Assembly: GCA_947493885.1 (NCBI GenBank)
Contig: CANLTE010000004.1
Coordinates: 248,001-312,000 of the forward strand
Direction: 5' to 3'
Length of the DNA: 64,000 nt
Source of the DNA: an uncultured Maribacter sp.
Lineage (GTDB): Bacteria > Bacteroidota > Bacteroidia > Flavobacteriales > Flavobacteriaceae
This document shows, piece after piece, positions 10,605 through 63,667 of the stretch (its first letter is position 1; every line of letters starts with the position of its first letter). A program made the translations under genes and the position numbers. The notes under the pieces were generated by a model, which saw only the letters and a program-made list of their open reading frames with translations, had not been told where the DNA came from and searched no databases.

Positions 10605-10605
10605 A

Positions 10606-12710: not shown

Positions 12711-12747
12711 TTTTGTAATACAAACAGATTATATATATCCCATAATT

Positions 12748-13587: not shown

Positions 13588-13606
13588 TATAGGTTAATAG
13601 ATATCG

Positions 13607-14509: not shown

Positions 14510-14663
14510 AAAATATGAAATTAAAATAACTTATTTAAACGTAAAAAATGCAAAACCCATTCATATAAGTTAATATAGGGTATTGTTTCATCCATTTTAG
14601 GATATTTGTATCTTCAGCAAAAAAACTAGTTTTAGCGATATTAAAAAACAAACAGATCTTTAA

Positions 14664-26422: not shown

Positions 26423-26459
26423 AATTTCTTGTTTTTTGGTTATTAGTTAATATTTAAAA

Positions 26460-27497: not shown

Positions 27498-27515
27498 TTT
27501 GATTATTTTTTAATA

Positions 27516-28610: not shown

Positions 28611-28629
28611 CTAATAAAAATAAATTAAA

Positions 28630-28666
28630 AAAAACAGCCTGCAATATAATACCACAGACTGTTTTT
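28630..28666 (-). terminator. Internal terminator/attenuator in the L-AHG operon
   Basis: AAAACAG pairs with CTGTTTT (inner CTG/CAG added after a mismatch), and the minus strand continues with eight T. It lies in the 63-bp gap between the aldehyde dehydrogenase and cycloisomerase genes, so some transcripts should end here, giving more of the upstream dehydrogenases than of the downstream cycloisomerase and symporter. Confidence 0.6.
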
Positions 28667-28673
28667 AACTTTA

Positions 28674-30128
28674 TTATGCTTTATGTCTTACGTAGAAAGT
28701 TTTCTTCTCCATGTACTGTTCAAAGCCATATTTACCATCTTCACCTCCTGAACCTGATAATTTATATCCATTATGGAACCCTTGATGTTGTTCTCCATGA
28801 CCACGGTTTACATATATTTCTCCGTACTCCAACTCATCATTACATTTCATGATTGTATTCATGTCATTTGTGAAAACCATTGCAGCTAAACCATATTCAC
28901 AGTCGTTAGCATAGCCAATAACTTCTTCAAAAGTTTTAAACTTCAACACAGGCAATATTGGACCAAAAGATTCTTCGTGAACGATTGTCATATCTTGTGT
29001 AACACCAGTTAAAACGGTTGGTTCAAACCAGAATCCTTTCTGGAACTCAGCTCCTTCAGGACGTTTACCACCTGCGGCAATTGTAGCTCCTTCTTTTACT
29101 GAAACTTCTACTAAATGCTCCATATGTTTTAGCTCCGACCCATTTACTTTAGGCCCCATATCAGTTTCCTCTAACATTGGATCGCCAACTTTTATTTCTG
29201 CTACTTTTGCTAGGAATTTTTCCATGAAAGTATCGTATATACCTTCATGTATATACATACGCTCGTTACAAGTACAAACTTGTCCACAGTTATCAAAACG
29301 AGAATGTAATGCTGCATCTACAGCTGCATCAATATCAGCATCTTCAAAAACAATAAAAGGAGCTTTGCCACCTAGTTCTAATTGAACATGTGTTAAATTT
29401 TGCGCTGCTGCACGAGCAATAGATTGACCTACAGGTGTGGAACCAGTCATGGTTACCATTTTGCAAATAGGGCTTTCTACTAGTGCATTACCCATAGCTC
29501 TACCTGGGCCTGTTAAAATGTTGATTACCCCAGCAGGGATACCTACTTTCTGAGCTAAGTTACCTAGCTCTAATGTAGCTAACGGAGTTTCTGATGTGGG
29601 CTTAATAACGATGGTGTTACCTGCTACTAATGCAGGACCTAGTTTGCGACCGGCTAAAGCAAAAGGAAAGTTCCAAGCAGTAATTGCAACAACAACCCCT
29701 CTTGGTACTTTTTGAATCCAAATTTGCTCATTAGCATTATCAGAAGGAATAATATCTCCTTCTATTCTTCTTGCTCCTTCACAGGCGTATCTAATAAATG
29801 AAGCACCTACGGCTACTTCAAAACGAGCTACTTTTAAAAGTTTTCCTTGCTCCTTTACTAATAACTGTGCTAATTCTTCTGTATTAGCATCAATTTCATC
29901 TGCTAATTTGTATAATAAATCTGCACGAGTTCTTGCTGGTAACTTTTTCCATTCTTTTTGAGCCTTATCAGCCGCTTCTAAAGTTTGTAATGCTTCTTCT
30001 GCTGTACCATTTTGTACTCTTGCTACTATTTCTTCTGTAGAAGGGCTAACAATATCAATAGTTTCTCCAGAAGTAGACTTTACCCACTCTCCATTGATAA
30101 ATAGTTTATATTCTTTAATATCTGCCAT
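28674..30128 (-). CDS. AldA-like aldehyde dehydrogenase, probable 3,6-anhydro-L-galactose dehydrogenase
   Basis: An NAD(P)-dependent aldehyde dehydrogenase of 484 residues from the chosen start (MADIKEYKLFINGEW); an upstream in-frame Met would overlap the SDR gene. The catalytic Cys is in NCGQVCTCNE near residue 282 and the general-base Glu in QLELGGKAP near 248; ITAWNFPFALAGRK and EESFGPILPV are family-typical. It resembles E. coli lactaldehyde dehydrogenase AldA, the same subfamily as the L-AHG dehydrogenases of agar degraders. The operon context favours oxidation of L-AHG to the aldonate. A lactaldehyde role is possible but no lactaldehyde-forming aldolase is seen. Confidence 0.8.
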   Translation of the reverse strand: MADIKEYKLFINGEWVKSTSGETIDIVSPSTEEIVARVQNGTAEEALQTLEAADKAQKEWKKLPARTRADLLYKLADEIDANTEELAQLLVKEQGKLLKVARFEVAVGASFIRYACEGARRIEGDIIPSDNANEQIWIQKVPRGVVVAITAWNFPFALAGRKLGPALVAGNTIVIKPTSETPLATLELGNLAQKVGIPAGVINILTGPGRAMGNALVESPICKMVTMTGSTPVGQSIARAAAQNLTHVQLELGGKAPFIVFEDADIDAAVDAALHSRFDNCGQVCTCNERMYIHEGIYDTFMEKFLAKVAEIKVGDPMLEETDMGPKVNGSELKHMEHLVEVSVKEGATIAAGGKRPEGAEFQKGFWFEPTVLTGVTQDMTIVHEESFGPILPVLKFKTFEEVIGYANDCEYGLAAMVFTNDMNTIMKCNDELEYGEIYVNRGHGEQHQGFHNGYKLSGSGGEDGKYGFEQYMEKKTFYVRHKA

Positions 30129-30157
30129 TGCTAATTGTTTTTTAATTTGAATTTGTT

Positions 30158-30928
30158 TTATCGGCCCATCCAACCACCATCTACAAGTGTGATAGAACCA
30201 TGCATATAATCAGAAGCTTTTGAGGACAAGAAAACTACTGGTCCAGCAAAATCTGTAGGTTCACCCCAGCGACCTGCTGGAATACGAGCTAAAATAGAAT
30301 CTGCTCTTTCTGGATTATTACGTAATGCTTCGGTATTATCTGTAGCGATATAACCAGGAGCAATTCCGTTTACATTAACCCCTTTACCTGCCCATTCATT
30401 AGCAAAAGCCATAATCATTTGACCAATAGCACCCTTACTTGCTGCATAACCAGGAACAGTAATACCTCCTTGGTACGTTAATAACGAAGCTGTAAATACT
30501 ATTTTACCAGAACCACGAGCAATCATATCTTTCCCAATTTCTCTTGTCAAGATAAATTGGGCATTTTGATTTACCTCAATTACCTTATCCCACATTTCAT
30601 CTGGGTGCTCAGCAGCAGGAGTTCTTAAAATGGTTCCCGCATTATTAATTAAAATATCTATTTGAGCGTGATTTGCTTTTACTTCTTTGATAAATGCATA
30701 AAGCGATTTTCTATTTGAAAAATCACATTGGTAAGCTGTAAACTTTTTACCTCTAGCATTAACTTCTTTTTCAATATCACTTCCTTCTAACTCTAAGGAA
30801 GCAGAAACACCAATAATATCTGCACCTGCCTCAGCTAAAGCTATTGCCATACCTTTACCAATACCACGTTTACAACCCGTAACAATGGCTACTTTTCCTT
30901 CTAAACTAAAACTATTTAATATACTCAT
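30158..30928 (-). CDS. kduD: KduD-like SDR, 2-keto-3-deoxy-D-gluconate 5-dehydrogenase
   Basis: A 256-residue short-chain dehydrogenase. It opens with FSLEGKVAIVTGCKRGIGKGM (cofactor TGxxxGxG), has NNAG, and shows the Ser-Tyr-Lys active site in TASLLTYQGG and GYAASKG; the end DFAGPVVFLSSKASDYMHGS closely follows KduD. KduD reduces 2,5-diketo-3-deoxygluconate to KDG. In the L-AHG pathway it completes the C5 inversion of 2-keto-3-deoxy-L-galactonate begun by the dehydrogenase next door; it could also serve KduI. It sits between the two other oxidoreductases, with gaps of 55 and 29 bases. Confidence 0.85.
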   Translation of the reverse strand: MSILNSFSLEGKVAIVTGCKRGIGKGMAIALAEAGADIIGVSASLELEGSDIEKEVNARGKKFTAYQCDFSNRKSLYAFIKEVKANHAQIDILINNAGTILRTPAAEHPDEMWDKVIEVNQNAQFILTREIGKDMIARGSGKIVFTASLLTYQGGITVPGYAASKGAIGQMIMAFANEWAGKGVNVNGIAPGYIATDNTEALRNNPERADSILARIPAGRWGEPTDFAGPVVFLSSKASDYMHGSITLVDGGWMGR

Positions 30929-30983
30929 TATCTTATTATTATATCTATTTATATAATGATTTACAGTAACTTATTTTCTGAAA

Positions 30984-32000
30984 TTATAATTGACAGTCCA
31001 TTAAAACTTTTAATCCATCAGGGTTATTATCGATATTTTCGAAAACCTGTTGAATATTAGATAATGGTTGAACATCAGTAATCATTTCTTCAAATGGTAA
31101 TTCATTTGCTGTAATTAAAGCAATTGACTTTTCATAATCTTCTTTTTCGTATACACGAGCCCCAATTAACTTTAACTCTTTCCAGAAAAACTTGAATAAA
31201 TTAACAGGCTTTGGTTCTCCGTGAATCGCAACCATAACAATACGGCCTCTAATTCCTGCAACTTCTGTCATAACATCAAGAGCAGGCTGAACTCCAGCAA
31301 CCTCAAAAACAACATCAGCCAAACGACCTTCGGTTTGCTCCTTTACATAAGCAACTAAATCCGTATTAATTGGATTTACAGCATCAAAACCTAATTCTTT
31401 TGCCTTTGCAATTCTATTTTCATTAACCTCCGAAATAATAACTTTTGCTCCTGTGTCTTTTGCAACCATAGCTACCAATAAACCAATTGGCCCACCACCT
31501 AAAACAACAGCAGTCTCACCTGCTTGAAGCCCACTTAAGCGAACATCATGCACGGCAACTGAAAGTGGTTCTATAAGGGCTGCTAATTTTAAATCAGTTT
31601 CTGCTTTTAATTTGTGCAATGTAAAGGCTGGCACATTCCAATATTGCTGCATAGAACCAGGGCTATCTATACCAATAAACTTTAAATCTTCACAAACGTG
31701 ATTAAACCCTTTGTCTGAAGGTTTTGCACCACGATCATCTAATGGTCTTACAACCACTTTTTCACCTGCTGAGTAACCAGACACTCCTACTCCAACAGCA
31801 TCGATAACGCCAGACATTTCATGACCAATGGTAACAGGTATGGAAACACGCTTATCCATCATCCCATGATAGATATGCACGTCCGTTCCACAAACACCAG
31901 AATAAGCCACCTTAATACGTACCTCTCCTTCTTTAGGTGCTTCTACTTCCTTTTCAATTACACTGAAGGTTTTATTACCTTCATACCTTGTTGCTTTCAT
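30984..32000 (-). CDS. Zinc-type dehydrogenase, probable 2-keto-3-deoxy-L-galactonate 5-dehydrogenase
   Basis: A 338-residue medium-chain dehydrogenase and first gene of the L-AHG operon. The catalytic zinc site is kept (GVCGTDVHIYHG, then TIGHEMSG), as is the cofactor loop LGGGPIGLLVA. The structural zinc loop is degenerate: where relatives have four cysteines, this one reads PLDDRGAKPSDKGFNHVCED with a single Cys, so it probably lacks the second zinc. With the KduD-like SDR it can epimerise C5 by oxidation then reduction, turning KDGal to KDG. L-threonine/sorbitol-type dehydrogenase activity is the generic alternative. It is preceded by a -7 box and a 34-bp inverted repeat. Confidence 0.7.
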   Translation of the reverse strand: MKATRYEGNKTFSVIEKEVEAPKEGEVRIKVAYSGVCGTDVHIYHGMMDKRVSIPVTIGHEMSGVIDAVGVGVSGYSAGEKVVVRPLDDRGAKPSDKGFNHVCEDLKFIGIDSPGSMQQYWNVPAFTLHKLKAETDLKLAALIEPLSVAVHDVRLSGLQAGETAVVLGGGPIGLLVAMVAKDTGAKVIISEVNENRIAKAKELGFDAVNPINTDLVAYVKEQTEGRLADVVFEVAGVQPALDVMTEVAGIRGRIVMVAIHGEPKPVNLFKFFWKELKLIGARVYEKEDYEKSIALITANELPFEEMITDVQPLSNIQQVFENIDNNPDGLKVLMDCQL

Positions 32001-32008
32001 TTATTTTA

Positions 32009-32042
32009 GTTTCAAATAATAAACCAGTTTCTTATTTGAAAC
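32009..32042. promoter_or_regulatory. Inverted repeat in the leader of the L-AHG operon (candidate IclR operator)
   Basis: Perfect 11-bp arms GTTTCAAATAA (32009-32019) and TTATTTGAAAC (32032-32042) with a 12-bp spacer. It lies between the -7 box and the start codon of the first catabolic gene, where a bound repressor would block transcription. The IclR gene is the nearest regulator. Confidence 0.6.
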
Positions 32043-32049
32043 AAATATA
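32042..32049 (-). promoter_or_regulatory. -7 promoter box of the L-AHG operon
   Basis: The minus strand reads TATATTTG, a full match to TAnnTTTG, 42 bases before the ATG at 32000. No good -33 TTTG is seen at the right spacing. Confidence 0.45.
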
Positions 32050-32213
32050 CAACATTTTGCTCGAAATTACAGTGATATTTTTAAGATAAAAAATACATTT
32101 TCACACACCTAACAAGAAGATAATCAACGTTTAGTATATAACACTAGAAAAGTAAAACTACACATTTTAAAAGTACTAAAAAATACTTTCAAAATATACC
32201 TCAAACAGCAGTT

Positions 32214-33005
32214 TTATTGTGTCAAATAACCCAATTTCACTGATATTTCCATAGCGTATTTAGCAACAATTTTCCCTTTTTCCTCAAATTCTTCATGAGG
32301 GAGCCTACCATGTGGAGCTGTAATCCAAAGTGCTGCAACTGGATAACCATACTCATTGTAAATTGGCGCTCCAACACAATGAATACCCTGTATATCCTCA
32401 CCATTGTCGATGGCGTAGCCATTTTGTTTAATCTCCTTTAATTGGTCTCGAAATTCTTTTTTAGATACAATAGTATTCTTGGTATACTTGGTTAGCGAAA
32501 TTTTCTTAAGAATCTCATTAGATTCTTCTTCTGGAAGATTAGCTAAAATACTTTTGCCTCCTACTGAACTATGCAGATTAAATTGCGTTCCTTGCTCCAC
32601 AAATAATTTCACTGGATATGATGATGCCACTTGCTCAAGAATAGCTCCTTTTACCCCCAACAAAACCCCCAACATTACGGATTCTTTTACCTTATCTCGT
32701 AACGCCCTCATAACATCAATAGACACCTCTACAATACTTTGTTCATTCATAGAAGATATACCCAAAGTGAGCATTTTTCGAGAAAGCGTGATTTTCTTAG
32801 TAGTTTCGTTTTTTTGTAAATAGTTTTTGAAAATTAATGTACTTACAACACGAAAAGCAGTTGTTTTAGTAAAAGTAAGTGCCTCGGTTATTTCCGCCAA
32901 CGTAAGTCCGCTCTTTTTAACTGCCAAAAGCTCAATAACCATTAAACCCTTTTCTAGATTAGGAACATTGTATGTGGATTTTAAATCGTTTTTAGCTCTA
33001 CCCAT
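32214..33005 (-). CDS. IclR-family regulator of the L-AHG operon
   Basis: A 263-residue regulator: winged helix-turn-helix at about residues 12-75 (NLEKGLMVIELLAVKKSGLT then ITEALTFTKTTAFRVVSTL) and an effector-binding IclR domain after it, with SSVGGKSILANL and the typical NGYAIDNGEDIQGIHCVGAPIY. IclR proteins often sense sugar acids or keto-deoxy-sugar acids (KdgR is one). It is upstream of and in the same direction as the L-AHG operon, separated by 213 bp that hold a strong inverted repeat. Repression relieved by KDG or a related intermediate is the simplest model. Confidence 0.88.
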   Translation of the reverse strand: MGRAKNDLKSTYNVPNLEKGLMVIELLAVKKSGLTLAEITEALTFTKTTAFRVVSTLIFKNYLQKNETTKKITLSRKMLTLGISSMNEQSIVEVSIDVMRALRDKVKESVMLGVLLGVKGAILEQVASSYPVKLFVEQGTQFNLHSSVGGKSILANLPEEESNEILKKISLTKYTKNTIVSKKEFRDQLKEIKQNGYAIDNGEDIQGIHCVGAPIYNEYGYPVAALWITAPHGRLPHEEFEEKGKIVAKYAMEISVKLGYLTQ

Positions 33006-33024
33006 AATGAAACATCATATTTCT

Positions 33025-33032
33025 CAAATTTA
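33025..33032 (-). promoter_or_regulatory. -7 promoter box of the IclR gene
   Basis: The minus strand reads TAAATTTG, a full consensus match, 20 bases before the start codon. A TTG about 23 bp further upstream is the best -33 candidate. Confidence 0.45.
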
Positions 33033-33068
33033 ACATTATTTATAAAATTTAATAACAACTAAAAAAAA

Positions 33069-33092
33069 GAGGGGTAATTAACATCACCCCTC
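33069..33092 (-). terminator. Terminator of the GH2-GH117 operon
   Basis: GAGGGGT (33069-33075) pairs with ACCCCTC (33086-33092); the minus strand then has a T8 run. It lies 31 bases past the GH117 stop. Confidence 0.8.
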
Positions 33093-33123
33093 CAATCACA
33101 ATTATGTATAAATCTTAAAAAAA

Positions 33124-34359
33124 CTACTTCTTTGTTCCCTTAGCTCCTTTAGCAACGTGTTGCTTTTTTCTTTGAGACGTAAAGCTCATAATACTTTGAT
33201 AATTCCAACTATTATATACGTGAGACAATCCCCAACGCAAAATTTCAGTTGGCTCCTTTTCGTTATCTGAAGTTCTATCCAGACCTATCGCATGGGCATC
33301 AACCCCTGGTATAACTGACATAATCTCGAAGTTAATACCATCAGGAGACCATTGAATAGTGTTTTTTTCTGGACCATCAGTTGTAATTAAAGCTGCAATA
33401 CCGCCATTATACGGCCAAACACATATCTCATGACCACTATTACTAATAGGGTTATAAGGCGACTTTACGTATGGACCTAATGGGTTATCTGCTATCGCCA
33501 CACCATGACGAATTTGTCTACCGCCAAATGTAATAGCCTCACCCATTTGCTCTCCTTTATAATACAGGTAAAATTTTCCTTTGTATGGAATGATGCATGG
33601 GTCATGAACTTTATGACTATCAAAATCACCTTTTTTCTTTACCATAAATCTGTTTTGCTCTTCACCTTCCCAAATACCATTATCAGCAGGACTTAAGATA
33701 GGCTCTTCACTTTTTATCCAAGGTCCATCAGGAGAATTTGCCCAAGCTAAACCTACTTGATTTTTTACTCTTACTGAGTAAGGAGATTTTACTGTTTGAT
33801 AACATAGATAGTATTTATCCTCATGCTTCATAATTTCCACAGTAAAAACAGAACGATCATCATAAGAACCTTTTTCTCCTCTTCCTACAGCCATACCTTC
33901 TTCTTTCCACGTAATACCATCTTCTGAAGTTGCGTACCAAATATCACATCTATCCCATGGAAACACCTTATCCTTTTCTACATCACCACCAAATCCTTGA
34001 GAAGGACCCGTACTTCTAGAGTACCATACATAATACTTTCCATTTTCCTTTATCATAGCACTCGGATCTCTACGAACAACACCTTCCTCATATGCTAAAT
34101 CTCCTTTCAAAGGCTTTAAAGGACCAAATTGAATAAACCACTCATTTCCTAAATCTTTTGGCCATTTTAACGCCCTCTTAGTAGCCGCACTTAACGAATC
34201 TACATTTGTAATTCCTAAATGATCAACTACATCCGCAGGTATTTCTGTCTCAACATTAGACTCTTCTTTAGCAACCTCTTTAGGCGCGTTCTGCATATTA
34301 CAAGACGATACCGCTATAGCTAGCGCTAGATATAATACATTTTTTGTTTTTAAAATCAT
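33124..34359 (-). CDS. GH117 alpha-1,3-(3,6-anhydro)-L-galactosidase, lipoprotein
   Basis: Removes the non-reducing terminal 3,6-anhydro-L-galactose from neoagaro-oligosaccharides. The start at 34359 gives a lipoprotein signal (MILKTKN... SSCN, Cys about 20) and leaves 7 bases after GH2; a longer frame would overlap GH2. The five-bladed propeller is recognised by FIQFGPLKPLKGDLAYEEG, VVRRDPSAMI (catalytic Asp near 97), KVHDPCII and SNSGHEICVWPY (His/Glu near 308, the proposed acid and partner in characterised GH117 enzymes). The 411-residue length is typical. It is the most diagnostic gene in the window, tying the locus to agar-type galactans and supplying L-AHG to the adjacent operon. Confidence 0.95.
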   Translation of the reverse strand: MILKTKNVLYLALAIAVSSCNMQNAPKEVAKEESNVETEIPADVVDHLGITNVDSLSAATKRALKWPKDLGNEWFIQFGPLKPLKGDLAYEEGVVRRDPSAMIKENGKYYVWYSRSTGPSQGFGGDVEKDKVFPWDRCDIWYATSEDGITWKEEGMAVGRGEKGSYDDRSVFTVEIMKHEDKYYLCYQTVKSPYSVRVKNQVGLAWANSPDGPWIKSEEPILSPADNGIWEGEEQNRFMVKKKGDFDSHKVHDPCIIPYKGKFYLYYKGEQMGEAITFGGRQIRHGVAIADNPLGPYVKSPYNPISNSGHEICVWPYNGGIAALITTDGPEKNTIQWSPDGINFEIMSVIPGVDAHAIGLDRTSDNEKEPTEILRWGLSHVYNSWNYQSIMSFTSQRKKQHVAKGAKGTKK

Positions 34360-34366
34360 GTTTAAT

Positions 34367-36901
34367 TTATTTAGTTGATATAGATATTGTGTTACTTTTA
34401 ATGTTTGTTGCATTGGCAGAAATACTTACATCACCGGAAAGTCCTTTAATAGATTGAACAATTAACAGACATCTTCCTTGATTAGTGACTATTTGATTAG
34501 TGTTATAATCTTGAACGTTAGTAGCTGCTCCGTTATCCACACCAAGTACTTTTATATTCCCCTCTGATTTGAAATTTAACTTAACATTGCTTGTTTTAAC
34601 TGGATTTCCATTTTTATCTACTAATTGAGCCACAATATGTGCAACATCGTAACCGTCAGCATCTAAATTTGTTTTATCCACCGTTAGTTTTATTTCGGTA
34701 ACTTCTTCAGGTGTAATTAAGGTTGTACTTACATGTTTTCCATTTACACTACCCCTAGCTACCAATTTTCCAGCACTAAATGGTACAGCCCATTTATAAA
34801 TATGATCTTCGAAATCTGCTAATTTTTTTACACCTAAACTTTTTTCGTCTAAAAACAATTCTACCTCATCACAGTTAGAATACACTTCAACTGACACCAT
34901 TTCATTATCATCATAATCCCAATGATTATTTACATTATGCCAAATCCATAGTGCAGTTTTCCACGCCTCTGGATCTTTAGCTACTAACTCGCCAGTTTTT
35001 TCATCAATTTTATTAATAGACCAATCTAACTTCTGAGTTGCTATGTAAACCGAAGGCTCTTCTGACCATAACGATTTATACATATAAAAAGATGGTTTTT
35101 TAAACCCAGCCTGATCTAACAAACCTGAATTTAGAGTTTTTCTTGGCCACTGACCATTAGACTCCCCCATATAATCAATACCTGTCCATAAAAACGTTCC
35201 AGAAACATGATCACGCTCTTCAATTGCTTTCCATTCATGCCATTGCCCTAAATTTTCAGTTCCCATAAGAGGAAGGTCAGGGTAATTTTCACGACCATAG
35301 TCGTACAAAATTCTTCTATAACTAAATCCAATAATATCTAACGCATCCGCATAACCAGTTTCATAACTAGCAGTTGGAAGTATACAATTAGCTATTACAT
35401 ACCTAGTAGTATCTAATTCCTTTGTCCATTTGGATAACTTTTTAGCAGTTTCCCCAACATCGTACTTACCCTTGGGCAAGGTTGCTATCTTTTCCTTTAC
35501 CTGCTCTATAGAATACGGGGATTTTTCCCAGAAATAATTACCTGTCCACTCCATATTACCAAAGAAACCAGTAGCCTTTTGACTATTTGGATAAGTCCAT
35601 TCAATTTCATTACCAATACTCCATTGAATTATCGAAGGGTGATTACGATGAGAAAGCATTGTATTAGTTAAATCTTTCTTAGCCCAGTCTTGAAAGTAAC
35701 GACCATACCCTTGAGTAATAGTATCTACTTTAGTTTCCCATTTATTTAACCTTTTATCTTTTGGATTGTCCCATTCGTCAAAAAACTCGTCTTGAACCAA
35801 AATTCCCATCTCGTCGCATAACTCCAAAAACTCTTTTGAAGCTGGATTATGAGAAACTCTAATAGCATTACAACCACCATCTTTTAAATTCTGAAACCTT
35901 CTGCGCCACACCCCTTTTGGTACAGCAGAGCCAACAAGACCTCCATCATGGTGTAAACAAACGCCTTTTATTTTCATGTTTTTTCCGTTCAAGAAAAACC
36001 CTTTATCCACATCAAAAAGTATTGTTCTAATTCCAAAAGAGGTTTCCTTAACATCCACACTTTCCCCTGCTTCAACAACACTTGAAACAGCACGGTACAA
36101 ATACGGATTATCAACTCCCCAAAGTTCCGGATTATCAACTATTGCATTGGATTTAAATGTTTTTTCCTCTCCTGCTTGAAGTGAAACTTCATCAATTGAC
36201 TCTCCTACCTTAGCATCGTCTTTGTTAAATATTTCGGTAACAACTTTAAACGATTTTTCTACATCATAATCGTTCTTAACCTTTACATCAATGGTAACTT
36301 CAGCTTCAGTATCAGTTACAGATGGTGTTGTTATAAATGTTCCCCATATTGGTATATGAAGTTTATTTTTTACAATAATTTTTACATTTCTATAGATCCC
36401 AGAACCTGTATACCATCTACTATCAGCATACCTGTTGTGATCAACCTCGACCTCAATTGCATTTTCACCACTCTTTAAATGAGAGGTTATATCATAAAAA
36501 AATGGCGAATAACCATAAGGGTGAAAACCTAATTCTGCTCCGTTTAAGCTAACGGTTGCATTGTTATACACTCCATCAAATAAAATGAAAGCTTTTTGAT
36601 CTTCACTTAAAGGCAATGTGAAGTTTTTCTTGTAAATTCCTAAACCACCTGGCAAATAACCTGTAGCTCCTTCTCCTTTGATTGAATCAAAAGAATATTC
36701 TCTACTCCAATCATGAGGCAAAGTAACATTTTGCCATCCATTAGTGGAAATACCAAAAGCTGTGTCCACTAGTTTAAATTGCCAATCGAAATTAAAATCT
36801 TGTTGGCTTACATGATTCCGTGTCAATTCTTTTTTATCCCCTTCCGTACATGCTGCAACAAAAGTTAATAACAAAAGAACATAAATTAATTTTTTCTTCA
36901 T
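34367..36901 (-). CDS. GH2 beta-galactosidase, lipoprotein
   Basis: An 844-residue retaining exo-beta-galactosidase with a lipoprotein signal (VAACTEGD, Cys about 18). Layout: sugar-binding sandwich (about 35-185, [24 protein letters not shown]), Ig-like domain (190-300), TIM barrel (300-600) with the acid/base Glu in [11 protein letters not shown] near 430 and the nucleophile Glu in [10 protein letters not shown] near 546, and C-terminal Ig domains including the family-typical [12 protein letters not shown]. It is first in an operon with GH117; agar oligosaccharides are taken apart by alternating GH2 (D-Gal) and GH117 (L-AHG) steps, so this is the partner enzyme. A porphyran-specific role is possible. 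Confidence 0.92.
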
Positions 36902-52570: not shown

Positions 52571-55423
52571 TTAAATTGGTCTTACTCTAATATTTTTCCA
52601 TCCCATCTTATACTGTTTTTCTCCTTTCATTCCATGTACTTGTAAGCCAATAAATCCTTTTGGGTGGGTCCTATACACTTCTTCATTAACAACATCATCT
52701 ATTTTGTGCCCATTCAAAAATGTTTGAATTCGCGGGCCTTTTGCTACGATTCTAATTTTATTCCATCCTTCAGAAATATAATAATCATGACCATTTTTAA
52801 CTTTTTCCTCTGAAGACAGAAAACCTATCCCCATTGCTTCTCCATAAATTAAACCTGTTGTAACGGTGCTCTCTTCCATTTTTTGTCTAATTTCTAATTG
52901 TGGACCCCATACACGCCCAGCTCTATAAAGACTATGGTCTTTTATAGTTACTGGTCTTGCTGATGAACGAAATTGTACACCTTGATTAGTTGTATTGTCT
53001 ACCATAACATCGCATTCAAATTCAAAATCATCAAATTCTTGTAAGGAACACAAAAAAGAGTTTTCGCTATTGGGAGTGGTTCTGCCTATAATTGCTCCTT
53101 TTTCTACTTTGTATGTATGAGAACCATTCATATGTGTCCATCCAGCTAATGTTTCTCCATCAAAAAGTGATATCCAACCTTCATCATCTTTTTCTCCTTC
53201 TACCTCCACTTTTGAGGCTTTTAAATAATCATCTGGAAGTGCAAATGCCATTACATAATCACCTGACGGTGTGCCATTTTTACCACCACCGCCTGCAACA
53301 ATAACAACATATTGTTTACCATCCTTCATATAAATTGTGGGTGTTGCATAGCCTCCAACAGGAAGTTTGTATTCCCATAGCAATTTCCCTCTACTTTTTT
53401 CAAAAGCTCTAATTTTCTCATCTGCTGTGGCAGCTATAAACACCAATCCTCCAGAAGTTGCTACTGCCCCTCCATAATTCATTGTGCCTGTATTTCTAAT
53501 ACCTTGTTTTACCAACTCCGGATATTCTCCTAATGGTTTTCTCCAAATATAATTTCCTGTTCCTAAATCTATACCATTTAAAGTTCCCCATGGTGGCGCA
53601 ACCGCAGGATAACCTTGGTTATCAAGAAAATTAGCATAACCATCATGAATATATCTCACTTTTCCTTTTTTACTAATAGTATCGTCCTCTACCACTTCAT
53701 TACTCAACAAATATGTTGATAATGCATTTAACTCTTCTTTTTTTAACTGAGGAAAAGCAGGCATAATATTGCGTCCATTTTGTATTATTTGGGTAATCTC
53801 TGGTTTAGATTTTGTTATATTTTCTAGACCAGGATACACAGGTAAATTCCCTTTGCGCTCCACTCCATGACAGGAAGCACAATTTTGAACATAAATCTGT
53901 TTTCCCAATTGTAAATTGGTTGCTTTTTTTCCTTTTTGTAAATCTCTCATTTTCTTTAGCTTCAATATAGAAGCCCCATGATTAGAATTTACGTATAAGA
54001 TGTTGCTGTGGGGGTCAAATGAAGCTCCCTGCCACTCAACGCCACCCAATGTTCCTGGAGCGGCTATTGTACCCACCTCGGATGGTGGTTCATATAAAAC
54101 TCCAGGTCTAAGTTTTGAAAATTTTTCAAGCGCAGCTGCTCTTGCTTCAGGTGATATGTTCGTTAAATCAGCTTCTGTTATACCCAAAGGACCCAATGGT
54201 AGAGGCTTTGTTGGTATTGGCTGCGTAGGTGAAGCCTCTTCCCCTTCAACTGTAGAAATAGGCACTTTCATTTCTTCCACAGGAAATATTGGCTCTCCCG
54301 TTTCTCTATCCAACACAAACGTAAGTCCCATTTTTGTAAGTTGCACCACAGCGTCTCTTTGTTTGTTTCCATCTTTTATGGTTACTAAAACCGGAGCTGA
54401 TGGATTATCATAATCCCATAAATCGTGATGCACAGTTTGGTAATGCCATATACGCTCACCAGTTTCTGCATTTAAAGCCAATACACAATTACCAAACAAA
54501 TTTGCTCCTTTTCTATTTCCGCCGTAAAAATCAAACGAAGGAGACCCAGTTGCACAGAATACCCAACCTCTTTCTTCATCTACGGTAAATCCACCCCAAG
54601 CATTAGCGCCTCCATACGTTTCCCCTTCTACAAACTCCCACGTATCATAACCAAATTCTCCCTTTTTTGGTATGGTATGAAAAATCCATTTAAACTCACC
54701 TGTTACAGCATCATAAGCTCTTATGTGACCAGGTGTAGACTTATACCCTTCTGGTACTCTAGACGAAACCATTAAATAATTTTTGTAAACTATTCCAGGT
54801 GTGGTAACTTCTATAGAGGCTTCTTCCAATGTAATATCTAAATGTTCCCTTAAGTCTATAAACCCTTTACCATTACCAAAATTTTTAATAAGACTTCCTG
54901 TTTTTGCATTTAAAGCATAAACTCTATTTTTCACATAGTGAAATATACGTGAATCATTACCATCAGTAGATTCCCAATAGGTAACTCCTCTACTTCTTCC
55001 TCTAAAAACGTTTCCATTTTCATTATATTTTGAAGACTCAAAAACCCATGCCTCTTTACCAGTTGTTGCATCTAAAGCAATAGCCTTTAAAGTAGATGTT
55101 GAAAAGTAAAGCAAACCATTAACCATTATTGGATTGCATTGCATAGAAGAACGATCTCCTGCATCTCCCGTTCTATACTGCCATGCTAACCCTAATTTGT
55201 GAACGTTTGCAGCATGTATTTGAGCTAATTCTGAAAACTGATTTCCTTTTTTATCTCCTCTGTAGGACTTCCAGCCAACATAGTCTGTTTTACTTTTTAC
55301 CTGCTCTTTAGTTTTAACAATACTTTTACTGCTATTTTCACTTTTACTAGAACATCCTATAGCAACAAGAATAACAATTACTACAAAGTATTTCCGAAAA
55401 TTATTAAATATAAATTTTAACAT
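52571..55423 (-). CDS. PQQ-dependent dehydrogenase fused to cytochrome c and DUF1080
   Basis: A 950-residue lipoprotein (AIGCSSKS, Cys about 24). Residues about 50-490 and 590-735 form the quinoprotein propeller (GWKSYRGDKKGNQFSEL, LGLAWQYRTGD, YGGANAWGGFTVDEERG, and AVATSGGLVFIAATADEKIRAFE); a class I cytochrome c (CASCH, about 512-516) is inserted between the two propeller parts, and about 750-950 is a DUF1080 domain (GWISLFDGETLAGW). It would oxidise a sugar or alcohol in the periplasm and pass electrons through its own haem. The DUF1080 tail, a fold with 3-keto-glycoside hydrolases, suggests oxidation followed by cleavage. It is divergent from an AraC gene; the substrate is unknown. Confidence 0.88.
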   Translation of the reverse strand: MLKFIFNNFRKYFVVIVILVAIGCSSKSENSSKSIVKTKEQVKSKTDYVGWKSYRGDKKGNQFSELAQIHAANVHKLGLAWQYRTGDAGDRSSMQCNPIMVNGLLYFSTSTLKAIALDATTGKEAWVFESSKYNENGNVFRGRSRGVTYWESTDGNDSRIFHYVKNRVYALNAKTGSLIKNFGNGKGFIDLREHLDITLEEASIEVTTPGIVYKNYLMVSSRVPEGYKSTPGHIRAYDAVTGEFKWIFHTIPKKGEFGYDTWEFVEGETYGGANAWGGFTVDEERGWVFCATGSPSFDFYGGNRKGANLFGNCVLALNAETGERIWHYQTVHHDLWDYDNPSAPVLVTIKDGNKQRDAVVQLTKMGLTFVLDRETGEPIFPVEEMKVPISTVEGEEASPTQPIPTKPLPLGPLGITEADLTNISPEARAAALEKFSKLRPGVLYEPPSEVGTIAAPGTLGGVEWQGASFDPHSNILYVNSNHGASILKLKKMRDLQKGKKATNLQLGKQIYVQNCASCHGVERKGNLPVYPGLENITKSKPEITQIIQNGRNIMPAFPQLKKEELNALSTYLLSNEVVEDDTISKKGKVRYIHDGYANFLDNQGYPAVAPPWGTLNGIDLGTGNYIWRKPLGEYPELVKQGIRNTGTMNYGGAVATSGGLVFIAATADEKIRAFEKSRGKLLWEYKLPVGGYATPTIYMKDGKQYVVIVAGGGGKNGTPSGDYVMAFALPDDYLKASKVEVEGEKDDEGWISLFDGETLAGWTHMNGSHTYKVEKGAIIGRTTPNSENSFLCSLQEFDDFEFECDVMVDNTTNQGVQFRSSARPVTIKDHSLYRAGRVWGPQLEIRQKMEESTVTTGLIYGEAMGIGFLSSEEKVKNGHDYYISEGWNKIRIVAKGPRIQTFLNGHKIDDVVNEEVYRTHPKGFIGLQVHGMKGEKQYKMGWKNIRVRPI

Positions 55424-55595
55424 AAAAGCACAGTATGAAGTAAATTAATCAAGAGCTACAATTATACGAATTTAGCCTACTTAAAAAGGACTGTGTTTTA
55501 GCTAAAACAGACTTTATTATATCAATTAAATGACTGTTTATTCAATTTACCGATAAATTAGTGTTAATTTACCCGTAATTCAATCCATTTATAAA

Positions 55596-56450
55596 ATGAA
55601 AACTGCAATTCAAAAATCGCCAATACCACAAAATCGTTTTTTTGTTGTTGAAACATTAAAACAACCTTTTTTTGACCCCAATTGGCATTTTCATTCAGAA
55701 TATCAATTATTCATTGTTTTAAAAGGCTCAGGGACAAGGTTTATTGGAGATAATGTTGAAAGGTACGATGAAGGTAGTATTACATTTACTGGTCCTAATT
55801 TACCGCATTTGTGGCGTAGTGATTATGATGGTTCTCAAGACTGGTCTGAAGGTATTGTTCTTTATTTTCATGAAGATTTTATAAGCCAAAATTTTCTAAA
55901 TAAAGATGAAGCTATAAAACTAAAACAACTTCTAAAATTGAGTTTACGGGGTATATCCATTAAAGAGAAAACTCTAAATGCTATAAAAGAAATGCTTTTA
56001 AAGCTTCCTAAACTAAAAGGTTTTGATGGCGTCTTGCAACTACTAAGTATACTAAACTATTTATCGAAAAGTAATGATATTGAATTACTAACTAGCCCTA
56101 GTTATACCAATTCTCTTAAAGAAGGTGATACCAATAGAATGAACAAAGTGTATTCTTATGTTATGCAAAACTTTAAACAAAAAATTAGTATTACAGAGTT
56201 AGCAGAATTAACTAACATGACACCAACATCTTTTAGTCGCTATTTTAAAATGCATGCAAATAAAACATTTTCAGATTTTATTAGCGAAATACGTATTGGT
56301 TATGCCTGCAAACTACTAATAGAAAAAAACATGAACGCCTCGCAAGCTTGTTATTCTAGTGGTTTTAGGACATTATCCAATTTTAATAAACAGTTTAGAA
56401 CTATCACTAAAAAATCACCTTTAGAATATAAAAAGGAATATAACGTATAA
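55596..56450 (+). CDS. AraC-family regulator with N-terminal cupin sensor
   Basis: A 284-residue paralogue of the two other cupin-AraC proteins in the window (PNWHFHSEYQLFIVLKGSGTRFIGD, FTGPNLPHLW, and a C-terminal double helix-turn-helix ending SPLEYKKEY). It lies between the divergent PQQ dehydrogenase and the co-directional DUF642-ThuA gene. TTTGTAGC-like sites in both flanking gaps, 21 bp apart, suggest it controls both. The effector is probably a sugar. Confidence 0.88.
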   Translation: MKTAIQKSPIPQNRFFVVETLKQPFFDPNWHFHSEYQLFIVLKGSGTRFIGDNVERYDEGSITFTGPNLPHLWRSDYDGSQDWSEGIVLYFHEDFISQNFLNKDEAIKLKQLLKLSLRGISIKEKTLNAIKEMLLKLPKLKGFDGVLQLLSILNYLSKSNDIELLTSPSYTNSLKEGDTNRMNKVYSYVMQNFKQKISITELAELTNMTPTSFSRYFKMHANKTFSDFISEIRIGYACKLLIEKNMNASQACYSSGFRTLSNFNKQFRTITKKSPLEYKKEYNV

Positions 56451-56541
56451 CCTATATTTTGTCATTTTTAGAGTTAAAATCAACTAAATAATTAATACAA
56501 ATGATAAAATACAGTCGTTCCTTGACAATATAAAGATAGGT

Positions 56542-56571
56542 ATTTGTAGCTACGATTACTTAATTTGTAGC
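56542..56571. promoter_or_regulatory. Direct repeat ATTTGTAGC, 21-bp period, before the DUF642-ThuA gene
   Basis: ATTTGTAGC occurs at 56542-56550 and 56563-56571, exactly 21 bp apart, the two-turn spacing typical of AraC half-sites. A related reverse copy (GCTACAAT, 55455-55462, with CCTAC 21 bp further) lies in the gap on the other side of the AraC gene. Confidence 0.55.
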
Positions 56572-56628
56572 ACGCTATAATTAGCATAAAATTTAGACTA
56601 TACGCATTTAAAATATTAAATATAAACC

Positions 56629-58539
56629 ATGAACATTTTTTGCCATAAAAATATAAATACACTTTTCTTTTTTTTAGCATGTAATGTGATTTTTGGACAA
56701 AACCTCCTTAAAAATGGGGCTTTCGAGAACAAAAAGATTAAATCTGAAAGTAAGATTGTAAAAAAACTTAACGGTTGGAAGGTAACTAACGGAAATGTAG
56801 AGTTCATCAGCAATACAATATTTTCTTCAACTGATAAAAACCTAGTGTTAGATTTAAATGGAAATCAACCTGGAGCAATTAGCCAAACTATTAAAGGATT
56901 AAAAAAAAACAGCAACTACACTTTAAAATTTGCTTACGCTGACCAGAAAAACAGAAATCGTGATATATCAGGAACTCTAGCTACCGCAGAAGTTTTTGTA
57001 AATGATAAAAAACTAACAACACTTCGCAACCTATCCCCTGCTCCAAATTATATTAATGGAATTGGTTTTGCATTTAAATCTTCTTCTAAAGGCGTTGCAA
57101 AAATTGAATTTGTTTCAACAACCAAAGGAAAAATGGGGCTTGTAATAGACAACGTTAACGTAAAAGAAGGCTTACCGTTAGAGCCTCCTGTAAATAATCA
57201 CTTGGTTAACGGAAGTTTTGAAATGAAAGTTGATAGTGAGGACAGTAACCCTCATCTTTTTGGAGAACAGCTTCCTGGATGGTTAATTATGAAAGAGAAT
57301 GTTGATATTATAGCAATTGATAATTATGGTACACCTCATGGAAAATGGATAATTGACCTTGGTGGTCATGGACCAGGTGGTATTGCTCAAACAATTAACA
57401 ATTTAACCCCTGGAGCTAATTATAGATTGTCTTTTTTATACTCTAGGCATAGATACTGGAATCAAGAAGACCCTTTAACTGGCAAGGTCTTTTTAAATGA
57501 TAACTTAGTTTTAAATCTGAGTAGAAATAAAAATTACAAAGCTCCACGATGGGAAAAAATTACCTATGATTTTATAGTTCCTCCAAATGGACAAGTAACC
57601 CTCTCCATGTTTTCAACTGCTCTAAAAGTTGGAGGCGGAATTTTATATGACAATATTCAAATTGAAAAAGTAACAGATATTGTTAAACCAAAAAAAATAC
57701 CCGTTTTAATTATTGATGGTTTTAGTAACCATCATTGGCAATTAAACACAAAATACCTTCAAAAAATACTGGAATCTAGCGGAAAGTTTACCGTTTCTGT
57801 AAGTACCTGTCCCAACAAAGAAAAAAATAACGCTGCTTGGGAGGATTGGAATCCTAACTTTTCTAACTACCCCGTAGTTATTCAAACCTGCAATAATATT
57901 AATAAGGAAAGTAGTTTACAATGGCCAGAAGAAGTAAAAAAATCATTTGAAGAATATGTAAAAAAAGGTGGTGGCGTTTATATGTACCATGGTGCAACTA
58001 ATGCGTTTAAAAGCTGGGATGCATATAATGAAATGATTGGTTTAGGATGGAGAAAAAAAGATTTTGGAATTGCGCTAACAATTGATGAAAATGAAAAAAT
58101 CACTGTGATACCAAAGGGTGAAGGTGAAAATACAGGCCATGGTCCTCGTAGAAATGCCTTAATTACACGAATTGGTCAACACCCTATTCATATAGGCATG
58201 CCAAAAAAATGGATTGCAGCCGATATAGAGGTTTACAGATACGGAAGAGGAACAGAAAAAAACCTTGAGGTATTATCTTATGCCAAAGATGAAAAAACTG
58301 GTTTGAATTTCCCTATAGAATGGACGGTAAAATATGGGGAAGGAAAAGTTTATAGCTCTACTTACGGACATTTATGGCATAATCAAAAACAACCTCCTAG
58401 TATGGAATGTGTTGCTTTTCATCAAAGTATGATACGTGCTTTGCAATGGCTAAGCAACAATAAGGCAGAAAATTACGTTCCTCAAAATTTTCCAATAGAA
58501 GAAAGGTTTTCTTTAAAAAAAGTAATCGTTCAAGAATAA
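56629..58539 (+). CDS. Secreted DUF642-like x2 + ThuA-like domain protein
   Basis: A 636-residue protein with a signal peptide (to about VIFGQ). Two related jelly-roll modules of the DUF642 kind follow (about 24-180, LLKNGAFENKK... and 190-350, HLVNGSFEMKVD...), which bind carbohydrate in plants and bacteria. The C-terminal 280 residues, from KKIPVLIIDGFSNHHW, are a ThuA-like class I glutamine-amidotransferase-fold domain (VYMYHGATNAF, YSSTYGHLWHN). ThuA proteins accompany trehalose and 3-keto-sugar use, which agrees with the PQQ/DUF1080 fusion next door. An enzymatic role is unproven. Confidence 0.8.
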   Translation: MNIFCHKNINTLFFFLACNVIFGQNLLKNGAFENKKIKSESKIVKKLNGWKVTNGNVEFISNTIFSSTDKNLVLDLNGNQPGAISQTIKGLKKNSNYTLKFAYADQKNRNRDISGTLATAEVFVNDKKLTTLRNLSPAPNYINGIGFAFKSSSKGVAKIEFVSTTKGKMGLVIDNVNVKEGLPLEPPVNNHLVNGSFEMKVDSEDSNPHLFGEQLPGWLIMKENVDIIAIDNYGTPHGKWIIDLGGHGPGGIAQTINNLTPGANYRLSFLYSRHRYWNQEDPLTGKVFLNDNLVLNLSRNKNYKAPRWEKITYDFIVPPNGQVTLSMFSTALKVGGGILYDNIQIEKVTDIVKPKKIPVLIIDGFSNHHWQLNTKYLQKILESSGKFTVSVSTCPNKEKNNAAWEDWNPNFSNYPVVIQTCNNINKESSLQWPEEVKKSFEEYVKKGGGVYMYHGATNAFKSWDAYNEMIGLGWRKKDFGIALTIDENEKITVIPKGEGENTGHGPRRNALITRIGQHPIHIGMPKKWIAADIEVYRYGRGTEKNLEVLSYAKDEKTGLNFPIEWTVKYGEGKVYSSTYGHLWHNQKQPPSMECVAFHQSMIRALQWLSNNKAENYVPQNFPIEERFSLKKVIVQE

Positions 58540-61187: not shown

Positions 61188-63638
61188 TTACCAAGTTAAC
61201 TCTATTGTTTTTGTTTCTCCGACTTCAAAATTTGTAGAAAAAGTATCTCCACCCAAACTCACTGTTTCTCCATTCACTTTTGCTGATCTTAATACTTTTC
61301 GAAGTTGAAAAAGGATATTCTGTTTTTTTCCACTCGATACTTTGGCAGTCATAGTTTTACCTACCATATCCCATTCTAAGTTTTCTACTTTAGCTTGCGT
61401 TCTACATAAAACTCCCGAAACACTTCCCTTTGAAAGTTTTTCGGATAATGCTGGTAAAAACTCAATAACCCCAGGTTTTGAAAATACAAGCATCTCCAAT
61501 ATCACTGCTGGGATTGAATGTAGTGCATCGGTATTATAGATTACATCTGGATTATGAGATGTTACCAAACTACTATACAGGTAATCATTTTTCATAAGGA
61601 ATAATAAATTACCGTACACCAAATCACTCTTTTTTAAGCGAGCAGCTATAAGCGCCGTATGCGCCAAACCATGAGCACTCCCGTTTCCTCGTCCGCGTTT
61701 TTCAATGGCAATATTTGAAGCTTTAAAAAGTTTTTCTTCTTCAGGAGAAATTTCTAATCCAGGCCACACGGGATAAAGATGAGAGATATGTCTATGGTTA
61801 TAATTATCTTTTAAATTAGGATGTGCCCATTCTTTTAAAGCGCCATCCTCGTTAATTAAATAAGGGGGTAATTTCCCCAACATGTCCTGCCAAAGCATTA
61901 CTTTCTCATCTTTTAAATCTAATTCTTTATTTACCGCGAGTAAATTGATGAGTAATTCTCTAATTACCGCAATATCCATAGTAGCATTTGCAACGGCTCC
62001 CATTCGTTCTCCATTTGGTAATAGAGCTTTATTTTCAGGTGAATAAGAAGGCCCTATTAAATACTTTCCATTATCATCATACATATCTAAAAAATCTTCG
62101 TAGAACAACGCTGTTTTCTTCATCATGGGGTATAGCCTTTTTTGCATAAACTCTTTATCTCCCGTACATTGATAGTATTCATAACATGGTAATAATAACC
62201 ATTCAACGCCTGCAGTCCAATAATTTCCAGGCCATTTACCAAAATGTGTATGATAATTATGCCTACCTGAAGTTCGTGTTCCTGATACGTAACCTCTGCA
62301 TCCAAACAAATTTTTAGCATTGACTTCCCAATCTGGTGCAATACGTTCCAACAATGTCATATAGCTATCAATAGCTTCTTTTTGGTTGGCTAGATTAGCT
62401 GCTGCTACTTGTAAATTTACGTTGGCATCCAAAGTAAAATCACCTGACCAACGCGGTCTCCAGCTTCCATTCCATATCCCCATTAAGTTAGGTGGATTTT
62501 TTCCACTACTAGAAATTAAACCGTAAACCCCCATGTTGAACACTTTTTCTAGTAAATACGGATTGATAACTTCTACTCCTTCCTGATTAGCTATTAGTAT
62601 TTCGTTAGGACCATCAGTAAATCCTGTCTTATCAAGATTCAGGGTAATACGGTTAAACATTTCACCATGTACAGCTTCATGTTTTTTTAAAACCTCATCA
62701 TAAGACACTAAACTCTTAATATTTGTTTTTACTTCTGAAATAGCAGATTCTGAAAACGGTTCAATAGGAATAACCTTTGCGTAAACCTCAACATCATCAG
62801 CTTCTTTAACAATTATTTTATTGTTTTTAGTAGTTAGAACACCGCCTTCATTCTTAATATTTACTACAACTTCATAGCCTCTATCTACCAATTGATATTT
62901 ACTCCTAAACGTTATCCAATGGTTATCTGTAACATTTTCAGGTTGCTCAACCAAAGGCGTATTTAGTTGTTCCCACTTATCAGGAAATAGCATTTTTATA
63001 TTTTGCTGAATACCAGATTCTTTATCTTCTTCAGATTGATTCTCATCAATTTGGTGGGCTAAGGAAAATGTAATGTTGATGTTTTTTTCTTTGCTACTTT
63101 TAATCTTTGTAGCAATTACATTATCGGGTCGAGACACAAAAGATGTTCGTTGAAATTGCACTTTATTCGCATTCCATTTTATGGTAATCTCTCCACTTTC
63201 ATAATTTAAGCTTCGTTCGTAACCTGAAACATCTCCTTGAAATTCTTGATTTAAGTTTAATACACAAGCAGGGTGATAAGGGTCGGTCCATAAAATATCT
63301 TGATACCCTCTGGTTTTGGCATGCTTCAATATTTCACTTTTAGCTTCTGCATATTTTTCAGCTCTAATTAGCTGTTTAGCCTTTGGCATTATATCACCTA
63401 TATCTGGAGGTTTCACACCTTCTGTTCCTATATATTCGTATAAAAACTCATGGTTAAAAATGATTTTCTCATCACGCGGATTTCCATGAACTAAAATACC
63501 CATTTCTCCGTTTCCACTTATTAAGGCATCTTGCCAACGAGAGGCTGGCGCATTACTTGATATAGAAGCATCATTTTTTGTTTTCTCCCCGCTGCAAGAC
63601 AATAAACACAATGTTAATACAAGAAAAATTCTATTCAT
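61188..63638 (-). CDS. GH95-family alpha-L-fucosidase/alpha-L-galactosidase-like, lipoprotein
   Basis: An 816-residue exo-enzyme; the start at 63638 gives a lipoprotein signal (MNRIFLVLTLCLLSCSGEK). An N-terminal beta sandwich (about 20-290, WQDALISGNGEMGILVHGNP, NHEFLYEY) is followed by an alpha/alpha barrel with LMGIWNGSWRPRWSGDFTLD, the HRHISHLYPVWPG block and a C-terminal sandwich. The barrel motifs diverge from classical GH95: the NxNxxMNYW stretch reads DANVNLQVA, and the usual DGNFG reads TDALHS. That may mean a changed substrate, such as L-galactose. It is upstream of, and probably with, the dipeptidase and esterase genes. Confidence 0.8.
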   Translation of the reverse strand: MNRIFLVLTLCLLSCSGEKTKNDASISSNAPASRWQDALISGNGEMGILVHGNPRDEKIIFNHEFLYEYIGTEGVKPPDIGDIMPKAKQLIRAEKYAEAKSEILKHAKTRGYQDILWTDPYHPACVLNLNQEFQGDVSGYERSLNYESGEITIKWNANKVQFQRTSFVSRPDNVIATKIKSSKEKNINITFSLAHQIDENQSEEDKESGIQQNIKMLFPDKWEQLNTPLVEQPENVTDNHWITFRSKYQLVDRGYEVVVNIKNEGGVLTTKNNKIIVKEADDVEVYAKVIPIEPFSESAISEVKTNIKSLVSYDEVLKKHEAVHGEMFNRITLNLDKTGFTDGPNEILIANQEGVEVINPYLLEKVFNMGVYGLISSSGKNPPNLMGIWNGSWRPRWSGDFTLDANVNLQVAAANLANQKEAIDSYMTLLERIAPDWEVNAKNLFGCRGYVSGTRTSGRHNYHTHFGKWPGNYWTAGVEWLLLPCYEYYQCTGDKEFMQKRLYPMMKKTALFYEDFLDMYDDNGKYLIGPSYSPENKALLPNGERMGAVANATMDIAVIRELLINLLAVNKELDLKDEKVMLWQDMLGKLPPYLINEDGALKEWAHPNLKDNYNHRHISHLYPVWPGLEISPEEEKLFKASNIAIEKRGRGNGSAHGLAHTALIAARLKKSDLVYGNLLFLMKNDYLYSSLVTSHNPDVIYNTDALHSIPAVILEMLVFSKPGVIEFLPALSEKLSKGSVSGVLCRTQAKVENLEWDMVGKTMTAKVSSGKKQNILFQLRKVLRSAKVNGETVSLGGDTFSTNFEVGETKTIELTW

Positions 63639-63667
63639 TAGTTTTATTTTTTTACCTCTCAAGGTTA

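Follow-up and report, generated by a model that had tools for sequence, protein, structure and literature searches.

Positions 52571-58539 of the 64,000-nucleotide stretch of uncultured Maribacter DNA analysed here (hereafter, the window) hold three genes, one of which encodes a 950-residue predicted lipoprotein that combines a pyrroloquinoline quinone (PQQ) dehydrogenase propeller, a c-type haem domain inserted into it and, at the C-terminus, a DUF1080 domain. This architecture, the conserved catalytic and haem residues and the pairing with a gene for a DUF642-ThuA protein can be read from the DNA and its homologues. We tentatively favour a reading in which the fusion works in the periplasm, anchored to the membrane, as a quinohaemoprotein glycoside dehydrogenase, and its DUF1080 domain acts on the keto product. 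Specifically, PQQ taken up from outside would load the propeller, which would oxidise a secondary hydroxyl of a glycosyl unit, most plausibly at C3. The built-in c-type haem would hand the electrons on to the respiratory chain, at no cost in NAD. The DUF1080 domain would then act on the keto product of the propeller, and the neighbouring DUF642-ThuA protein on the same substrate or product. From the features described below we infer PQQ loading, the electron path and a carbohydrate substrate; the least certain parts are C3 as the site, a natural guess because of the DUF1080 partner, and a catalytic role of DUF1080. It is possible, though doubtful, that one polypeptide performs the C3 oxidation through PQQ and haem and that its own DUF1080 then cleaves or hydrates the oxidised sugar, which would make it an NAD-independent, non-hydrolytic periplasmic glycosidase working with scavenged PQQ and having counterparts built from GSDH-type dehydrogenases and ThuA or DUF1080.

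Architecture and redox residues of the fusion

The open reading frame (ORF) list agreed with the original prediction on the coordinates and strands of the three genes, and Pfam matches together with the lipobox-like start bore out its description of the fusion and of the two neighbours. The features are as follows.

52571..55423, minus strand: 950-residue predicted lipoprotein in which a PQQ dehydrogenase holds an inserted c-type haem domain and ends in DUF1080 (ORF, Pfam, NCBIfam, structure model, Foldseek)
55352..55423, minus strand: predicted lipoprotein signal peptide, lipobox-like VAIG/C24 (VAIGC, Cys24; sequence, assigned by eye)
53915..55273, minus strand: N-terminal part of the PQQ propeller, residues 51-503, in which D337 aligns with Asp308 of 1kb0 (Pfam PQQ, alignment)
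53708..53914, minus strand: inserted cytochrome c domain, residues 504-572, with C515-x-x-C518-H519 and M554 (Pfam Cytochrome_CBB3, alignment)
53306..53587, minus strand: C-terminal part of the PQQ propeller, residues 613-706 (Pfam PQQ_2)
52580..53179, minus strand: DUF1080 / 3keto-disac_hyd domain (PF06439), residues 749-948, nearest structure BT3469 (Pfam, profile, structure comparison)
55596..56450, plus strand: cupin-AraC transcription regulator, 284 residues, divergent from the fusion (ORF, Pfam)
56629..58539, plus strand: DUF642-DUF642-ThuA protein, 636 residues, predicted secreted from its N-terminus by eye (ORF, Pfam)
57703..58449, plus strand: ThuA domain, residues 359-607 of the 636-residue protein (Pfam, alignment)

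The redox residues were read from an alignment of 30 homologues, and the profile was aligned with quinohaemoprotein alcohol dehydrogenases including 1kb0. W276, D337 and K364 were invariant (30/30) and aligned with W245, D308 and K335 of 1kb0, and E225, which aligned with E185, was Glu in 26 and Asp in 4 of the homologues; in 1kb0 we take Asp and Lys to be catalytic, Trp to stack on PQQ, and Glu, Asn and Asp to be the metal ligands. The haem motif CxxCH and Met554 were kept in 29 of the 30. Like the TIGR03074 group (glucose, quinate and shikimate dehydrogenases) and the type II quinohaemoprotein alcohol dehydrogenases (1kb0, 1kv9, 1yiq), the fusion has a PQQ propeller with aligned catalytic Asp and Lys, and with the type II enzymes it shares a c-type haem domain. 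Unlike the 1kb0 type, it carries the haem domain inside the propeller sequence instead of at the C-terminus, as aligned against the type II enzymes, and it has a DUF1080 tail and, where that type has Asn as a metal ligand, a Ser. TIGR03074 was the nearest NCBIfam model (487.8 bits, under its cut-off of 832.65).

The AlphaFold model of the whole fusion had a mean predicted local distance difference test score (pLDDT) of 79.9 and a predicted template modelling score (pTM) of 0.83. Its Foldseek neighbours were quinohaemoprotein alcohol dehydrogenases, as well as 4cvb and the sorbose dehydrogenase 4mh1, and its tail matched BT3469. We set aside a lanthanide-dependent reading, which would draw on Asp339, two places after D337, as in XoxF, because E. 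coli glucose dehydrogenase has the same Asp.

In the regulator, HTH_18 and AraC_binding scored over their Pfam cut-offs and Cupin_2 slightly under (25.8 vs 27.2). The ThuA domain (PF06283) of the 636-residue protein scored 65.3 bits against a cut-off of 33.4, its core had 17 invariant columns in seven aligned sequences of 21-74% identity, and 4e5v, a putative ThuA-like protein, is among its relatives. By eye, 9 of 13 fusion relatives also begin with a hydrophobic stretch that ends in Cys; the other four show no clear one.

Distribution of the fusion and its gene neighbourhoods

Homologues were sought in 149 genomes of the family (E <= 1e-60, best five candidates per genome scored), in 395 genomes of the phylum (E <= 1e-120, best two candidates per genome scored), and in a collection represented by the best 79 distinct loci from at least 594 relatives. 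Named relatives and a SusD gene point to Bacteroidota as the host's phylum. The own genome held one copy of the fusion. PQQ-haem homologues were present in 20/149 family genomes, three of which (G000, G019 and G129) matched through DUF1080, and in 54/395 phylum genomes, own included, with a full-length match in the own genome only; a long open frame in another phylum genome (G473) was checked for DUF1080 and had none. Two further genera of the family carry full-length homologues, which are 80% and 67% identical to the fusion. Among the matches listed, at least nine further loci have PQQ and DUF1080 in one ORF (L049-L053, L057, L058, L061 and L064; 52-71% identity in the best segment), one of which, at L058, ends at a contig end; these come from Bacteroidota, Verrucomicrobiota and Acidobacteriota records. 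The fusion is therefore not a frame artefact of the assembly.

Separate, adjacent PQQ-haem and DUF1080 genes were found at L055, L056, L123, L125 and the family locus L046. In a tree of 105 PQQ-haem proteins, built by a quick method with support from the Shimodaira-Hasegawa-like approximate likelihood ratio test only, 12 fusions fell in one set of 15 together with the split L055 and L056 and with L054, whose ORF has no DUF1080 yet lies inside the clade. Note that the tree labels of L006, L072 and L117 read 'none' although a DUF1080 ORF lies close. The fusion clade probably has one origin, with some splitting and with transfer or loss between phyla. L123, L125 and L046 stand elsewhere in the tree, so the adjacency of PQQ-haem and DUF1080 genes arose more than once. 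Outside the clade, a DUF1080 ORF lay within 1.5 kb of 6/90 PQQ-haem genes (73 with full flanks), and the same was true of 4/9 further, best-scoring genes; near a fifth of these nine genes, at L164, the profile missed a DUF1080 gene that was found separately. At L068 and L073, tblastn matched the PQQ enzyme and ORF calling gave no PQQ-haem ORF.

To the original prediction, DUF1080 and ThuA were both tied to 3-keto-sugar chemistry, and their tie to a PQQ-type dehydrogenase and cytochrome c indeed recurs in differently built proteins and gene runs. The own genome encodes a 1000-residue ThuA-GSDH-PKD-cytochrome c protein (L154:4951-7950, weak cytochrome match), and G129 encodes two (L159:2473-5880 and L160:4041-7079), the three spanning 1000-1136 residues. 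Like the window's pair, these proteins bring ThuA together with cytochrome c and a predicted sugar dehydrogenase domain of PQQ type; they differ in having GSDH (PF07995) for PF01011 and ThuA in the same chain. Ahead of the gene for the L159 protein, in one tight run with it, lie a Gfo/Idh gene and a gene encoding HEAT and two DUF1080 domains; the run also includes a metallophosphatase gene. In an Opitutales metagenome-assembled genome (MAG), an 883-residue cytochrome c-GSDH-DUF1080-ankyrin protein (L061:17450-20098) lies about 5 kb from a PQQ-DUF1080 fusion. Since GSDH belongs to a different Pfam family from PF01011, the joining of a predicted sugar dehydrogenase domain to cytochrome c and either DUF1080 or ThuA has happened more than once, and a functional link finds its strongest support in this repetition. 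In total, 10 DUF1080 and 4 ThuA domains were matched in the own genome, so that their lying within a few kb by chance is unlikely, though its probability is not zero.

We compared neighbourhoods between the 15 fusion-clade loci (of any length) and 72 non-clade loci of at least 12 kb, the loci not being independent. DUF6807 (PF14100) was found at 5/15 clade loci and at 0/72 others (p 8e-5), and at those five it either lies next to the fusion or is attached to the split DUF1080, which makes it a possible further pathway part. ThuA was near 3/15 vs 3/72 loci (p 0.06, not significant), and neither GSDH (1/15 vs 0/72) nor GMC (0/15 vs 0/72) was in significant excess at the clade loci. In G314 (L175), the next best of the phylum sample at 54%, genes for DUF1080 (434 residues), DUF6807 (317 residues) and a PQQ-haem protein (772 residues) form a same-strand run. 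The DUF6807 positions are as follows.

L051:181-1080
L053:8702-9649
L054
L055:12067-13686
L056:12225-13811
L175:8514-9464

The DUF642-ThuA protein was full-length in 3/149 family genomes, the same three that hold the fusion, and it adjoins the fusion in all three; two further family genomes matched it in the ThuA part only. The AraC gene lies between the two genes in the window and in G019. On the other hand, in G129 the DUF642-ThuA gene stands directly upstream of the fusion on the same strand, with 13 bases from stop to start, and no AraC relative was found at that locus. A neighbourhood survey across Bacteroidota had been proposed: the pair was kept in all three fusion-bearing family genomes, and the three genes did not prove a widely conserved unit beyond them, since AraC was at 2/3 family loci and was not found at fusion loci outside the family genomes, and ThuA was not found at the other 12 clade loci, several of which are on short contigs. 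Three genera of one family amount to few independent linkage events.

Control of both flanking genes by the AraC protein was not supported: 12 tests (four regions, three spacings) gave no convincing operator shared by the promoters of the fusion and of the ThuA gene. The best tests, reached by 7 and 13 of 500 shuffles, both fell in the window's region upstream of the fusion and were not repeated in G019, with which the window shares conserved sequence blocks in the promoter comparison. Promoter-like sites (28 vs 28.3 by chance) and terminator-like sites (3 vs 3.2) were not in excess.

Three further regions were recorded. At L161:2785-7341 of G129, a gene for a 1169-residue ThuA-DUF7133-plastocyanin-like protein occurs with AP_endonuc_2 and Gfo/Idh genes, and the cupin-AraC gene at that locus has the KSPIP start motif in common with the window's regulator. 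Window positions 13643-17454 hold another cupin-AraC gene, a zinc alcohol dehydrogenase gene, an esterase gene and a second DUF1080 gene (16582-17454). Genes for aldose epimerase, MR_MLE, aldehyde dehydrogenase, short-chain dehydrogenase/reductase, alcohol dehydrogenase, a RhaT-like protein and glycoside hydrolases GH2, GH43 and GH95 lie at 25403-36901 and 61188-63662 and may form a region for the oxidative use of deoxysugars (fucose or rhamnose).

Weighing the readings

The DUF1080 domain of the fusion scored 117.7 bits against a Pfam gathering cut-off of 26.8 (PF06439), and its model had a pLDDT of 85.7. The closest structure was BT3469 (4jqt), with a template modelling (TM) score of 0.80 by query length and 34% identity, followed by other DUF1080 structures, among them 8tda, 8rr2 and 9fbe at 0.66-0.67 and 16-17% identity, and by chains of the carbohydrate-binding module CBM66 at 0.51-0.58, also by query length. 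The structures are titled 3-Keto-2-hydroxy-glucal-hydratase BT2 of B. thetaiotaomicron (8tda, which is taken to correspond to BT2157, entry 3osd) and 3-keto-glycoside eliminase/hydratase (8rr2, 9fbe). Because of these titles, oxidation followed by elimination and hydration is likelier than plain hydrolysis, so that of the original proposal of non-hydrolytic or hydrolytic cleavage the former part is the better supported, with BT3469 as the nearest relative. The DUF1080 profile matched 8rr2, 8v31, 8tda and 9fbe with E of 2.5e-7 to 1.2e-6 and partial cover, and a single DUF1080 sequence matched the characterised eliminase/hydratases with E of about 0.04. Against CBM66, the profile gave E of 0.11-0.15, which is no close sequence relation, though the structure comparison shows a shared fold. 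Judged by these profile and structure comparisons and by its nearest relative, BT3469, the domain is a PF06439 member outside the characterised branch, and its catalysis is putative.

Several results weigh against the glycoside dehydrogenase reading. For DUF1080, TM scores by target length reverse the order (CBM66 0.63-0.74 vs 0.52-0.56 for 8tda, 8rr2, 9fbe and 8v31), the profile's likeness to the characterised enzymes lies mainly in about residues 4-93, and the nearest relative, BT3469, is without known function. In the propeller, the residue matching Asn263, the metal ligand of 1kb0, is Ser in 26/30 homologues, fusion included, and the fusion at L061 (851 residues) is the sole one of the 30 without the haem motif and Met. 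Separate genes for DUF1080 (5/15 clade vs 11/72 other loci, p 0.10), Gfo/Idh (3/15 vs 14/72) and AP_endonuc_2 (1/15 vs 5/72) showed no significant excess near clade loci. The PQQ supply was searched through PqqC alone among the pqq genes, and several hosts are MAGs of unknown completeness: there was no match in the own genome, nor in 14 control genomes, and none in 13 other fusion-clade hosts (11 fused, 2 split; the L054 host left out). In 247 phylum genomes there was likewise none over the cut-off, with 18 weak matches. As a positive control, the PqqC model scored 319 and 323 bits in two genomes out of the seven tried that carry other homologues. The absence of PqqC from the host and the 13 others was not foreseen by the original prediction, and the fusion presumably relies on imported PQQ. 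From the literature, deletion of BT2157 or BT2158 in B. thetaiotaomicron left growth on raffinose-family sugars intact according to PMC11501099, which weighs against a strong role of the 3-keto-glycoside pathway in general, and PMC9007349 reports no DUF1080 gene with a lactose phenotype in a Pedobacter.

The chief rival, which we regard as a real possibility, is an ordinary quinohaemoprotein sugar dehydrogenase acting at C1, C6 or another position, with DUF1080 as a CBM66-like binding module that holds the enzyme on the glycan. The CBM66 fold, with the TM scores just given, is consistent with it, and the DUF1080/CBM66 annotation overlap is remarked in PMC5673643. A precedent for such a build is fungal. 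According to PMC4332668, the PQQ pyranose dehydrogenase of Coprinopsis cinerea (CAZy AA12) joins, like the fusion, a cytochrome, a PQQ domain and a carbohydrate module in one protein, and differs in having haem b and CBM1. However, the sequence profile favours BT3469 and the eliminase/hydratases over CBM66, 14 aligned DUF1080 domains share 40 invariant columns that are spread over the domain and include polar residues, and a two-domain DUF1080 relative in the own genome adjoins a Gfo/Idh gene (L031), all of which argue against this rival. The AA12 enzyme has a different PQQ fold.

It is improbable that the secondary alcohol which the propeller oxidises is a non-carbohydrate or aglycone one (polyol, steroid-like or toxin-like), with the haem feeding respiration and DUF1080 and ThuA incidental. 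The Foldseek neighbours 7wmd and 22vi, titled as PQQ dehydrogenases that detoxify deoxynivalenol, and the methanol and ethanol dehydrogenases beside them would fit such a substrate, and the repeated linkage to DUF1080, ThuA and DUF6807 genes speaks against it. Least probable of all, and very unlikely, is that the fusion is not used as a PQQ enzyme in its host, being mostly apoprotein without PQQ synthesis or an 'empty' quinoprotein kept for binding, a reading to which the PqqC results, the replaced metal ligand and a match to the acido-empty-quinoprotein model (241.5 bits, far under its cut-off of 650) lend something, and against which stand the invariant W276, D337 and K364 and the E. coli glucose dehydrogenase, which works with scavenged PQQ. 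Taken as a whole, the interpretation originally offered for this module is partly supported.

Relation to known systems and meaning

To our knowledge, the dehydrogenases of known 3-keto-glycoside routes depend on NAD or a flavin and are made as separate proteins. The oxidiser of the Bacteroides pathway is an NAD-dependent Gfo/Idh enzyme and that of LacABC a flavoprotein. The glycoside dehydrogenase reading would place the fusion with the Bacteroides 3-keto-glycoside enzymes (8tda, 8rr2, 9fbe; BT2157, 3osd) in DUF1080 fold and expected 3-keto-glycoside chemistry, from which its DUF1080 differs in being closer to BT3469 than to their structures. The own genome also holds, at L147 (contig C5:164001-180000), positions 7447-15998, a second cluster of 3-keto-glycoside type with GMC, Gluconate_2-dh3, Gfo/Idh, two AP_endonuc_2, MFS and DUF1080 genes, whose domains presumably match those of LacABC. 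This cluster resembles the LacABC-DUF1080 clusters of PMC9007349, where the lactose 3-dehydrogenase LacABC is set beside a periplasmic DUF1080 protein (Caulobacter CCNA_01705). As for LacABC and its DUF1080 partner there, the proposal for the fusion is that a glycoside is oxidised in the periplasm and that DUF1080 comes next; unlike LacABC, a separate, multi-subunit, membrane-bound oxidiser, the PQQ-haem protein here is fused to DUF1080. An Agrobacterium O-glycoside eliminase had carried the annotation sugar phosphate isomerase, according to PMC10628242. We found no paper combining PQQ and DUF1080 in the open-licence PubMed Central (PMC) literature, a result that does not prove the fusion unpublished.

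If the favoured reading is true, then by carrying the following step in the same chain the PQQ-haem enzyme would connect glycan cleavage with respiration and with the sharing of PQQ between bacteria, and the fusion is one expressible protein on which this idea is testable. It would also hint at functions for the BT3469-type branch of DUF1080 and for DUF6807.

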